From Tetragenococcus osmophilus (GTDB taxonomy: Bacteria > Bacillota > Bacilli > Lactobacillales > Enterococcaceae), in the NCBI RefSeq assembly GCF_003795125.1, contig NZ_CP027783.1:1488001-1552000 (forward strand): 64,000 nt of DNA, read 5' to 3'. Under the pieces are notes generated by a model. That model worked only from the letters and a program-made list of their open reading frames with translations, ran no database searches and was not told the origin of the DNA. Shown here in pieces: positions 23,477 to 61,911 of the stretch (position 1 is its first letter; each line of letters opens with the position of its first letter). A program made the translations under genes and the position numbers.

Positions 23477-23537
23477 AAAATACCCGAACTATAAGAGAAG
23501 GCCATTTTGCCTCTTCTCTATATAGTTCGGGTATTTT
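23477..23537. terminator. Strong bidirectional terminator between ileS and zwf
   Basis: A long hairpin pairs AAAATACCCGAACTATA with TATAGTTCGGGTATTTT, with an inner AGAGAAG / CTTCTCT stem. A-run and T-run on both sides allow termination of the convergent ileS and zwf. Confidence 0.93.
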
Positions 23538-43668: not shown

Positions 43669-43861
43669 TATGTTCTGAGTTTGTTTTCAGGACATAAATC
43701 AACAGCAGTTATGTCCTGAAATCGCCCTCAGTACATAGGTTGAGCTTTTTCTAAACTAAATTTAGGATTTTAGAACATAAGTTTAGAAAATCTATGTCCT
43801 ATATCTCCTTTCAGGACATAAGTCTTCTCATTTTATGTTCTGAGTTTGTTTTCAGGACATA
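43669..43861 (+). repeat. Palindrome array 1: five degenerate 28-nt units, 41-42 bp period
   Basis: Units begin at 43669, 43710, 43752, 43793 and 43834 (steps 41, 42, 41, 41). Each follows the pattern TATGTTCTGA...TTCAGGACATA, an inverted repeat able to form a 10-11 bp hairpin; unit 3 is badly decayed and unit 2 has mismatches. Spacers are 13-14 nt and often begin A(A/G)TC. The same unit forms the array at 57305. Fills most of the gap between khpA and the next gene. Confidence 0.9.
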
Positions 43862-57123: not shown

Positions 57124-57189
57124 TCAATAACTGCCACCAGAGATTTGACGATATAACCAATCGAATGGTGCAAAGAAAACATCTTCCAT
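57124..57189 (-). CDS. Candidate 21-aa peptide of unknown function
   Basis: ATG 57189 opens 21 codons: MEDVFFAPFDWLYRQ followed by ISGGSY and a TGA. GAGGGGG lies about 9 bases upstream. The peptide is aromatic-rich and neutral to acidic, unlike the hydrophobic type I toxins. It is too short for reliable prediction. It lies alone in the 690-bp gap between the sulfoxide reductase gene and ssrA, 115 bp from palindrome array 2. Confidence 0.45.
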   Translation of the reverse strand: MEDVFFAPFDWLYRQISGGSY

Positions 57190-57304
57190 ATACTCGTCCC
57201 CCTCTATTTAAACAATAACATAGGTAGGGATTACAAAGAGATTAGTTTTTATTACAAATTAAATAAGTTATGTTACACACAAGATTTATGAGAAAAAGAC
57301 GACT

Positions 57305-57496
57305 TATGTTCTGAATTGATTTTCAGGACATAAGTCTGGTGGATCTATGTTCTGAATTGACTTTCAGGACATAAGTCTGGCGGATCTATGTTCTGAATTG
57401 ACTTTCAGGACATAAGTCTGGCGGATCTATGTTCTGAACTGACTTTCAGGACATAAATCTGGTGGATCTATGTTCTGAATTGACTTTCAGGACATA
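57305..57496 (+). repeat. Palindrome array 2: five 28-nt units at an exact 41-bp period
   Basis: Units start at 57305, 57346, 57387, 57428 and 57469. Each pairs TATGTTCTGAA with TTCAGGACATA around a 6-nt loop (one G-T pair on the plus-strand RNA); unit 1 is extended by GACT / AGTC to 15 bp. Spacers are 13 nt, nearly identical (AGTCTGGCGGATC and close variants). Ends 94 bp before the ssrA promoter. Not a CRISPR: spacers are short and repeated. Confidence 0.95.
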
Positions 57497-57589
57497 AATC
57501 AGTATAGATTCCTCAATTTCTTAATCATAGTCATTTATTTTTTTAAAGAAAAAGTCAGTTTATATTTAATCTTGAAAAAGGCAAATAGC

Positions 57590-57617
57590 TTGAAAAAAAT
57601 GTAAATTATGGTAGAAT
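57590..57617 (+). promoter_or_regulatory. ssrA promoter
   Basis: TTGAAA (57590-57595) and TAGAAT (57612-57617), 16-bp spacer, about 30 bp upstream of the mature tmRNA 5' end. Confidence 0.75.
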
Positions 57618-57646: not shown

Positions 57647-58008
57647 GGGGACGTTACGGATTCGACAGGCATAGATCGAGCTCGAATTGCGCTCCGTAGG
57701 TTGCGTCTACGTAAAAACGCTCAGTTAAATATAACTGCTAAAAACAATAACAATTCTTACGCTTTAGCTGCGTAAAAACAGCTAGCGTAGATCCTCTCGG
57801 CATCGCTCATGTGCCGAATCAGGGTCTCAACTTTAGTGGGATACGCATTGACTTTCCGTCTGGAAGTCAATGAAGAGATTATCAGACTAGCTTTATAAAC
57901 GGCTTGTCACATAGCGGTTTATAAAGCGAAATTAAACCCATGTGACTATGAGCGTAGATATTCAAGCGGCGATATGTCTGGACGCGGGTTCAACTCCCGC
58001 CGTCTCCA
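57647..58008 (+). ncRNA. ssrA: tmRNA (ssrA)
   Basis: Transfer-messenger RNA that rescues stalled ribosomes. The 5' end GGGGACGTTACGG pairs with the 3' end CGTCTCC, and the T-loop GGTTCAACTCC is complete. The tag frame reads AKNNNNSYALAA and stops at TAA (about 57774). The enterococcal tag is very close (one residue different, from memory). CCA is not encoded. The 3' end is used as an integration site by the island that follows. Confidence 0.97.
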
Positions 58009-58122: not shown

Positions 58123-59259
58123 TTAAAAATCAACATAATCATTAAATTGTTTTGCTAATTTTTCTTTAGCATATTTTGATACGTGGGTGTAAATGTCCAT
58201 TGTCGTTTGAATATCACTATGACCTAATCTAGCTTGTACATCTTTTATAGTTGCGCCTGCTTCAAATAGTAAACTAGCGTGAGTATGTCTAAAACCATGT
58301 GTAGAGATTCGCTTTAATGGTTCTTTGCGTGACTTGTTTATATTATTTTGAACAGTAACTAACCACTTACGTGTTTTAGCAGGAGAGAGGATATCACCTT
58401 TTTCAGAGTGAAAAATAAGATCATTAGTTGGTTCTTGCTCTTTAAAGGTTTTTAATATGGAAAGTGTTTTATCATCAACTGATATTCTACGAATAGAAGC
58501 AGGCGTTTTAGGCGTTTGAATATATAAACCAGTAGCTTTTCGGGAGACAGCTTTATTAATATTTAATGTTTTATTTTGAAAGTCAATATCTGACCACTTT
58601 AAAGCTAATGCTTCACCTTTACGCATACCAGTAAAAGCGAGGAGGCGAAAGAATACGAAAGCTCTAAAGTTTGCCCCTTGTTCAAGTTCATTCATAAGAA
58701 TTTTTAGTTCGTTTTTATCGTAAAAATTTAAGTCTTTATCTTCTTTCACTTGTTTTTGTCGCGTAGGTTTACGGATGACTTTTGTAGGGTTTGACTGGAT
58801 TAAACCAATACGTATAGCATAATTAAAAACCATCCCCGCATAGTTCATGATCATCGACGCACGAACATATTTTTTATGCCATATATTCATTTGCTCTTGT
58901 ACAATTATCGGTGTAATCTCTGCAATATTTTTATTCCCGAAAGCAGGTAAAATATGATGGTTAAAAAGCTGTTCTGCTTTATATAGAGTAGACTCTTTTA
59001 CAGTTGCAGCGTATTCTTCTAGCCATGATTCATAAACCTGTTTAAATGTTTTTACTTCTTTTTCCTCATATTTTGCTTTTAAATCATCTAACCAGTTAAG
59101 TTTTAGACGAGACAGCTCTAAATTTGCCTCGCGTTTTGTTTTAAATCCGCGTTTTGTTGTAAATACTTTTTCTTTAGTGTAGGGGTTAATACCTAAATAG
59201 GTTTGGAATTTATAACGCTTTTCGCCATTTTTTAAATTGTATTCTTTAATTGTTGGCAT
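58123..59259 (-). CDS. int: Tyrosine site-specific integrase
   Basis: A 378-aa phage/ICE-type integrase. AP2-like N-terminal arm (MPTIKEYNLKNGEKRYKFQTYLGINPYTKEK), SAM-like core-binding region, and catalytic domain with Arg in LLAFTGMRKGEALALKW, HGFRHTHASLLFEAG (HxxR) and the Tyr in TTMDIYTHVS. ATG 59259 has AAGGAG upstream; a GTG at 59268 is within that site. Adjacent to and facing the ssrA 3' end, as usual for an integrase using this target. Confidence 0.95.
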   Translation of the reverse strand: MPTIKEYNLKNGEKRYKFQTYLGINPYTKEKVFTTKRGFKTKREANLELSRLKLNWLDDLKAKYEEKEVKTFKQVYESWLEEYAATVKESTLYKAEQLFNHHILPAFGNKNIAEITPIIVQEQMNIWHKKYVRASMIMNYAGMVFNYAIRIGLIQSNPTKVIRKPTRQKQVKEDKDLNFYDKNELKILMNELEQGANFRAFVFFRLLAFTGMRKGEALALKWSDIDFQNKTLNINKAVSRKATGLYIQTPKTPASIRRISVDDKTLSILKTFKEQEPTNDLIFHSEKGDILSPAKTRKWLVTVQNNINKSRKEPLKRISTHGFRHTHASLLFEAGATIKDVQARLGHSDIQTTMDIYTHVSKYAKEKLAKQFNDYVDF

Positions 59260-59386
59260 AGTAATCACTCCTTCGAATTTTTAGCTTATGAATACGAATT
59301 CCGATGTTTTAACTTGAATTTTGGCTATAATTGCTAGGAATTTTTGAATTTCATCTACTAAAATGCGAACTCCAGTTCGATTGATG

Positions 59387-60499: not shown

Positions 60500-61360
60500 C
60501 TACACCAACATTTTGGCTTGATCTTCCGCTTGCTGGGGCGTTAAGTAATGGAGTTTCCCATGAATGCGTTCGCGATTATACCAACCACTGATATATTGGA
60601 ATAAAGCGAGGCGCGCTTCATCAAAAGTTTTGTAATGTTTCAAATAAACTTCTTCCTTTTTCAAAGTCGCATGAAAAGATTCGATCCCTGAATTATCATA
60701 AGGGGTTCCTTTGCGACTGTAAGAATGACTGACATGATATTGGAGGAGAAGTTGTTCAAATGCATCACTTGTATATTGCGTACCTAAATCCGTTTGAAGG
60801 ACCAATCCAGCCCCCTCTTTTAATTGTTGGTTTTGCACGGCTTGGTGAAAAGCCTCCACGGCAATCGAAGCCGTCATTTGTTTGCCATAAGAATAGCCAA
60901 TAATTTTACGAGAATACAAATCCATGACAGAAGCCAAGTAAGTCCAACCCTCTTTTTGGGTATGGACATAGGTGATATCTGCGCCCCATTTCTGGTTGAT
61001 CGAAGTTGTAGAGAAATCCTGTTTTAAGAGATTTTCACGAGCGGTCACTTTTTCATGATTCGTCGCTGGACGATACTTTTTTCGAGTAATGGAACGAATC
61101 CCAAGTTCTCGCATCAATCTTTGGACGCGCTTTTGACCGATCTTCCAACCGGACTGTTTTAATTTATAGGTGATTTTGGGAGCGCCATAACGGCGCTTGC
61201 TTTTCTCGTAAATCTGTAAAATTTCTTGTTTTAATTGCTCGTTTTCTTGGCTCCTTGGACTTGGACGACGATACTTGGAAGCATAGTACGTCGACTTTGG
61301 TACCTCGAGAACATCCGTTAACAGACGTACCGGGTACTCTTGACTTTCTTCGTCGATCAT
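60500..61360 (-). CDS. IS3-family transposase OrfB
   Basis: Integrase-core (rve) domain, 286 aa as an independent ORF. Catalytic residues: Asp in KWGADITYVHT, Asp in VLQTDLGTQYTSDAF, Glu in NSGIESFHATLKKEEVY. The frame extends upstream to meet orfA, so it is probably produced as an OrfAB fusion through -1 frameshifting at an A7 run (61411-61417). Confidence 0.93.
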   Translation of the reverse strand: MIDEESQEYPVRLLTDVLEVPKSTYYASKYRRPSPRSQENEQLKQEILQIYEKSKRRYGAPKITYKLKQSGWKIGQKRVQRLMRELGIRSITRKKYRPATNHEKVTARENLLKQDFSTTSINQKWGADITYVHTQKEGWTYLASVMDLYSRKIIGYSYGKQMTASIAVEAFHQAVQNQQLKEGAGLVLQTDLGTQYTSDAFEQLLLQYHVSHSYSRKGTPYDNSGIESFHATLKKEEVYLKHYKTFDEARLALFQYISGWYNRERIHGKLHYLTPQQAEDQAKMLV

Positions 61361-61383
61361 CTCATAAATGGGAGAGTCATCGG

Positions 61384-61641
61384 CTATTCTTTCGTGAATA
61401 TGGTGATAGCTTTTTTTAGAATATCATTTTCCTGCTCCAGACGATGCATTTTTTTCTCCATTTGATGGATATCTGCCTGACTTTTTCCTGTTTCTTCATC
61501 CGGAGTATATTCTTTTTTCCAGTTAAATATCGTTGCTTCAGAAATACCATATTCACGTGCCAAAGAAGGGACACTTTGTCCTTGTTTATTTAGTTGAAGG
61601 ATCAATTCTCTTGTTTCTTGATTATATTTTTTAGCCATCAT
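61384..61641 (-). CDS. IS3-family OrfA (helix-turn-helix)
   Basis: An 85-aa HTH/leucine-zipper protein (QETRELILQLNKQGQSVPSLAREYGISEATIFNWKKEY, then IHQMEKKMHRLEQENDILKKA). The codons CTA AAA AAA G near its end form a slippery site for -1 frameshifting into orfB. AAAGGATG precedes ATG 61641. Confidence 0.92.
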   Translation of the reverse strand: MMAKKYNQETRELILQLNKQGQSVPSLAREYGISEATIFNWKKEYTPDEETGKSQADIHQMEKKMHRLEQENDILKKAITIFTKE

Positions 61642-61911
61642 TAGACATCCTTTCATAGAATATTATAATACTCTACAAATATGTGTCCATGAATTTAACC
61701 TAACACCAAGATAATAATATCAAACATAAAAAAATAAAACTCATTTTTACATACTCCTTCTATAACACTTCTCGTTTCTACCCACACTAATATTCAATAT
61801 ATCATTAAACCTCATAATTTTTATACACTTTTATCACCAAAATTTCAAGTTTAAGTTAGCCACTTAGTAAAACTAAATTTCATGCGATATTTGACGGTTA
61901 CTATCTGTGTA

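Follow-up and report, generated by a model that had tools for sequence, protein, structure and literature searches.

Small dispersed repeats of bacteria are usually read as mobile debris or as RNA hairpins. In the EFAR repeats of Enterococcus faecalis, short palindromic modules are joined in variable assemblies. The BOX elements of Streptococcus pneumoniae are modular, with the arrangement boxA-boxB(n)-boxC, and carry terminal inverted repeats together with target-site duplications, as described (PMC3049150). Here we set beside these systems an array of short palindromes upstream of the tmRNA gene ssrA, located in a 64,000-nucleotide stretch of a Tetragenococcus chromosome (the whole stretch is called the window below), together with its relatives across the genus; no description of the palindrome repeat was found in a literature search whose coverage is thin for subscription journals.

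Results

Two arrays in the window

Array 1 (57301..57500, no strand assigned) holds five 28-bp dyads, 36 bp each with their outer bases, which follow one another at a period of 41 bp on the plus strand, with unit 1 at 57305..57332, unit 2 at 57346..57373, unit 3 at 57387..57414, unit 4 at 57428..57455 and unit 5 at 57469..57496. An earlier note on this DNA had described a five-unit array at 57305-57496 with these same unit starts, a single polarity, an exact 41-bp period and near-identical 13-nt spacers, all of which is borne out. The palindromes it named are indeed dyads, but their arms are not perfectly complementary (T.G at position 6/23 in all five units), and its equation of 41 bp with four helical turns is only approximate, since 10.5 bp per turn gives, by arithmetic, 3.9 turns and a drift of about 34 degrees per unit. 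Read as 16-bp half-sites, array 1 alternates in orientation, with half-site starts 20 or 21 bp apart.

The neighbouring ssrA gene (57647..58008, plus strand) lies outside the element. A promoter-like TTGAAA...TAGAAT stands at 57590-57617, 93 bp past array 1 and thus close to the 94 bp previously given as the distance to the tmRNA promoter, promoter-like matches of this sort showing no excess over shuffles in that region. A link of the array to ssrA is unsupported and an ssrA-specific element was rejected, because in the genomes G001, G003 and G007 no array accompanies the ssrA promoter region and the sister species G005 has a mere remnant; G002, G004, G006 and G008 are uninformative for this comparison owing to contig ends or different surroundings. 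The array at ssrA probably has no function there beyond occupying spacer DNA.

Several other features surround array 1. A conserved small ORF (57124-57189, minus strand, 21 aa here, MEDVFFAPFDWLYRQISGGSY) is preceded by a GA-rich, ribosome-site-like stretch and recurs as a translated frame at five of six loci in the genus, the sixth (L061) being a DNA match in the opposite orientation. Just past ssrA and 626 bp from array 1, an ORF judged by eye to be tyrosine-recombinase integrase-like (58123-59268, minus strand) suggests that an element may have integrated at the tmRNA gene. An ORF pair resembling an IS3-type transposase, likewise by eye, is located at 60500-61656 on the minus strand.

Generalising the unit to TATGTNCTGAR-N6-YTCAGNACATA gave nine matches in the window at up to three mismatches, against 0.03 expected in shuffles, namely the five units of array 1 and four in a second array of the same family, which is absent from the earlier note. 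This array 2 (43669..43861, no strand assigned) consists of the four called units and a divergent fifth in their middle, a 2 + special + 2 form. The special central unit (43751..43779, plus strand) is 29 nt long, takes a 42-bp step and has one degenerate arm. Array 2 lies behind a hairpin that by eye is terminator-like, downstream of a KhpA-like gene.

Distribution and genomic setting of the family

The window genome (2.38 Mb, with the window on its 2.33-Mb contig) contains 123 units of the palindrome family at up to two mismatches, all of them accounted for by 29 dispersed intergenic loci; across the family, called units number two to nine per locus. At least two good units are present at 28 of these loci, and the 29th (L028) has one plus a degenerate second. 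With one mismatch allowed, a survey of the genus found matches in four of nine Tetragenococcus genomes (110 in the window genome, 58 in G005, 5 in G008 and 1 in G007), and none of 96 genomes from 16 other genera of the family contained the unit pattern at the same threshold. An exact scan with the oriented pattern across 84,980 species genomes, a collection that possibly lacks the window's own genome, returned 12 stretches, 11 of which belong to Tetragenococcus muriaticus DSM 15685 (G005) and one to a Tetragenococcus MAG (G008). On these searches, the palindrome repeat looks specific to the genus Tetragenococcus. A plasmid or phage origin was rejected, as array 1 had no blastn match at E 0.01 in plasmid and phage collections and the exact unit pattern had no match in viral contigs.

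Across 46 arrays, no ORF of at least 60 aa overlapped an array by more than 40 bp, and a single array (L027) was overlapped by 16 bp. The 29 arrays of the window genome lie between tandem genes in 19 cases (ssrA counted), convergent genes in eight and divergent genes in two, and a terminator-like hairpin, as read from the sequence, precedes at least L013, L014, L022 and L023. Neighbour annotation covered 50 of 53 listed proteins of at least 80 aa; the list was compiled for 28 of the 29 loci, and stretch ends truncate many of its entries. The scanned proteins are mostly products of ordinary chromosomal genes of no recurring type, three of the 50 being without a family. Regulators adjoin single arrays, namely a response regulator (L013) and ArsR-like (L027), MerR-like (L030) and TetR-like (L036) proteins, as does a ParE-like toxin (L017), none of these types recurring, and a phage integrase had no match among the 50 scanned neighbours.

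Some loci have neighbours of separate interest. The sole transposase among the 50 scanned proteins, of the IS110 family, is encoded at 1278-1799 of L019, 358 bp from the array. At L023, a gene for a 37-kD nucleoid-associated protein (NA37; 1008-1799) ends 95 bp from the array, which makes its product a possible candidate DNA-binding partner. Next to the array at L015 (about 1100-1210), and likewise at L045 and L108 (G007), there is a second small repeat whose ends resemble TATAGTTCGGATAT; two copies of it with one mismatch face each other at 23479-23535 of the window, where the count of matches is at chance level. A two-component system at L065 (1650-5120) lies in a segment of about 3 kb that has an array on either side, each array following a terminator-like hairpin, and the two hairpins are related; in G001, G004, G005 and G007 this place is taken by unrelated DNA of about 0.8-1.2 kb.

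Spacing and the special unit

Between neighbouring units up to 300 bp apart we counted 156 spacings at 46 loci: 127 of 41 bp, 25 of 83, two of 124 and one each of 114 and 155, one of the 124-bp spacings (L039) being uninformative because it spans an assembly gap. Despite widely differing units, all 156 can be written as 41n with at most one special unit of 42 bp or, rarely, 73 bp. The 83-bp spacings contain the special unit, a 29-nt dyad with a 42-bp step and often one degenerate arm, while the spacings of 114 and 155 bp hold its 73-bp version, which occurs at L016 of the window genome and at its orthologous locus in G008, L052. Altogether 18 of the 29 window-genome loci have a special unit, in the form of one 83-bp step, and at nine of these 18 it is flanked by exactly two called units on each side; the others have 1 to 4 and 1 to 3. 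Among the loci without a special unit, several have homogeneous arrays, array 1 at ssrA being an example.

Throughout the family, the dyad with its outer bases spans 36 bp, and successive 15-16-bp half-sites, at intervals of about 20 and 21 bp, point in opposite directions. The 113 unique 41-mers require about 569 substitutions by parsimony, a set preselected for length 41, so that the unbiased statement on spacing is the census above. Unit polarity is mixed within many loci. Of 163 unique units, 94 could be given an orientation, and their profile reads about GAYT at the hairpin foot. The earlier note had asked whether unit number and period vary freely; compared between species, the number does vary, by whole units, but the period is constant over the 156 spacings.

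Change, gain and loss at orthologous loci

Across 11 pairs of orthologous loci, changes were seen at 37 of 873 arm-core positions, 100 of 482 loop positions, 99 of 477 spacer positions and 650 of 6016 aligned flank positions, i.e., arm cores are about five times less changed than loops and spacers, in a comparison where calling units in one genome by their match to the consensus lowers the apparent core change and where three of the 11 pairs have replaced units, so that paralogous units are compared. The cleanest diverged pair, L011/L038, gave 2/54 for the core, 8/30 for loops, 6/26 for spacers and 87/552 for flanks. Two pairs run counter to the trend: in L037/L041 the core (4/162) changed more than the flank (6/579), and in L016/L052 it changed about as much (14/72 against 83/376). 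L018/L039 and L037/L054 were excluded from the 11 pairs for unread bases or unalignable flanks, and the flank of L024/L050 is unreliable, with a contig end close by. Several pairs have flanks that are about 98% alike or more, for which recent exchange is a possible explanation.

Orthologous arrays L028 and L044 differ by exactly one unit. In L015/L045, L027/L040 and L035/L046, the units of the sister species are mostly replaced by one or two unit types with similar unit number, and the G008 array L054 stands at the place of L037/L041 with intergenic flanks that can no longer be aligned. Moreover, the L036 site is without an array in G001, G003, G004 and G007, as is the L015 site in G001, G004 and G008, with a remnant in G007; beside the L037 site, inspection by eye of about 900 bases in G001-G004 and G007 showed no array, the other side of the interval being rearranged. 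Arrays missing from orthologous sites indicate that arrays have been gained and lost, mainly on the lineage of the window species and T. muriaticus, and, judging from these comparisons, they retain their form while present.

Arms as DNA half-sites or RNA stem

If the palindromes were selected as RNA, covarying arm positions would be expected. The arms of 162 unique units formed 1526 Watson-Crick pairs against 1523 in shuffled arms (p 0.36), and with one unit per locus at 28 loci of the window genome 264 pairs were formed against 267 in shuffles (p 0.79 as the mean of 30 draws), a test of limited power as most arm positions barely vary. Pooled units had a weak pairing excess at position 6 (94 against 84, p 0.03) and position 7 (151 against 148, p 0.02) and a deficit at position 11 (81 against 96); when each of 29 loci contributed a single unit, positions 6, 7 and 11 gave 15.6 against 15.6, 28.0 against 28.0 and 15.0 against 18.0, and the excesses were gone. 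An equality of G-T and A-C mismatches among pooled units is no evidence against RNA, because pooling arbitrary strands gives equality anyway, and the mismatch test was therefore rerun on oriented units and with shuffles. Here no consistent preference for G-U over A-C emerged, position 11 favouring G-U on one strand and position 0 on the other. With arms that pair as shuffled arms do, the transcribed RNA element offered by the earlier note is not supported, and the arm statistics would fit half-sites of 15-16 bp that alternate on DNA better than they fit a stem in RNA.

Discussion

We put the probability at about 0.5 that array 1 represents a single copy of a modular repeat that is confined to Tetragenococcus, dispersed between genes and mobile, with its geometry set by a putative multimeric DNA-binding protein. 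In this explanation, to which the estimate applies as a whole, each 41-bp unit would be a dyad on DNA formed by a pair of 15-16-bp half-sites (about GAYTTATGTNCTGAAA), so that half-sites follow one another along the array about every 20.5 bp, with successive ones inverted. A dimeric protein would bind neighbouring dyads side by side, which would account for the fixed geometry. The repeat itself would be a small non-autonomous mobile element that spread for the most part within the lineage of T. muriaticus and the window species, probably mobilised by the dyad-binding protein or by a partner enzyme acting on the repeat, and local duplication and conversion may have made some mixed arrays homogeneous, perhaps including the one at ssrA. 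The fixed geometry and the half-site statistics, both unlike BOX, point to a protein recognising DNA dyads arranged in rows. A protein-binding array, another option of the earlier note, is favoured because the spacing is invariant and the two arms behave like half-sites independent of each other, the binding protein being putative; against the explanation stands that neither a cognate protein nor a transposase has been identified for the repeat.

The same arrays could instead be a selfish or inert small repeat of BOX or EFAR kind, moved by a transposase in trans and involving no host protein, whose hairpins matter only accidentally when transcribed. Lineage-specific, intergenic and modular distribution, presence and absence at the same site, and mostly ordinary neighbours of no recurring type all agree with this, yet decay should bring indels, which the intergenic flanks of nine locus pairs show at 10 per 145 substitutions, and no spacing in the census breaks the rule; the cores of the 11 pairs are also better conserved than loops and spacers. 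We consider this reading possible but doubtful. A host array that organises the chromosome, as a nucleoid or terminus-domain marker read by a dedicated putative DNA-binding protein, would explain the fixed geometry and the grouping of units at nearly every locus, which differs from the scattered operators of a regulator. Furthermore, the half of the chromosome remote from dnaA contains 21 of the 29 loci (p 0.02), and a single quarter contains 17 (p 0.006). Both biases vanish, however, when loci within 15 kb are merged (14/22, p 0.29, and 11/22, p 0.20), for which reason a terminus-domain marker was rejected, and arrays were not found in five of the nine genus genomes and are absent from single sites elsewhere, so that we regard a chromosome-organising array as quite improbable. 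Unlikely, too, if a little less so, is a genus-specific nucleoprotein system in which a putative dimeric protein would coat the alternating half-site chains at the 29 arrays in their 41/42-bp geometry, forming organising or domain-marking complexes that arose within one genus.

Least probable is that the units are transcribed and act as RNA, as equal hairpins in a row that would regulate ssrA or the ends of mRNAs. The RNA strand folds far better than shuffles (z -9.1), as any palindrome would, and the weak pooled pairing excess at positions 6 and 7 speaks for this reading, but overall covariation does not exceed independence, oriented units lack a consistent G-U preference, the array has no match in Rfam, and three relatives have no array at ssrA; an RNA hairpin or regulatory RNA is disfavoured by all four.

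The Tetragenococcus repeat combines one exact spacing, kept through strong divergence, with arms that lack RNA-type covariation, and this makes the cause of the fixed geometry a testable question in a food bacterium. Should the protein be found, it would stand for a new type of enzyme that spreads repeats or, alternatively, for a system of chromosome organisation that evolved recently.

Comparison with known systems

CRISPR arrays, defined by unique spacers between identical repeats, differ from the present family, in which spacers within homogeneous arrays are near-identical. The dif-like core site of tyrosine recombinases, with 11+6+11 bp, has the same layout as the dyad. A site of this kind seems unlikely, as the Tetragenococcus arms do not appear to resemble dif arms. 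With EFAR, compared by description only, the repeat shares the bacterial family and short palindromic modules; the difference is that its unit pattern had no match in the 96 genomes of 16 other genera.

As described (PMC3733652), GTAG REPs are likewise short, dispersed intergenic palindromes that sometimes form arrays. The REP-like habit suggested by the earlier note thus stands (29 loci, intergenic, lineage-specific), whereas a REP of the GTAG/RAYT kind is not supported: the hairpin foot has about GAYT in place of GTAG, and Y1 transposases are unrelated to the arrays in position and distribution, the only match in the window genome being a frame of 156 aa whose nearest array is about 21 kb away, and Y1 transposases occurring in seven of nine genus genomes irrespective of arrays, including the array-free G001-G004.

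The closest likeness is to BOX, which is also a modular intergenic repeat (PMC3049150), dispersed and nearly confined to one lineage, with a tandem part variable in unit number, and modular tandem units of variable number were found in the Tetragenococcus arrays as well. We found no terminal inverted repeats beyond the dyads and no target-site duplication, the flanks of empty sites being too diverged to show one. In contrast to BOX, whose boxA and boxC were compared by description only, the arrays begin and end with ordinary units and by eye share no flanking module at 46 loci; all units are versions of a single dyad, the period is invariant at 41 bp and the special unit is central. Overall, we think the family is best read as a new modular repeat of BOX-like kind that has spread in the manner of a small mobile element.
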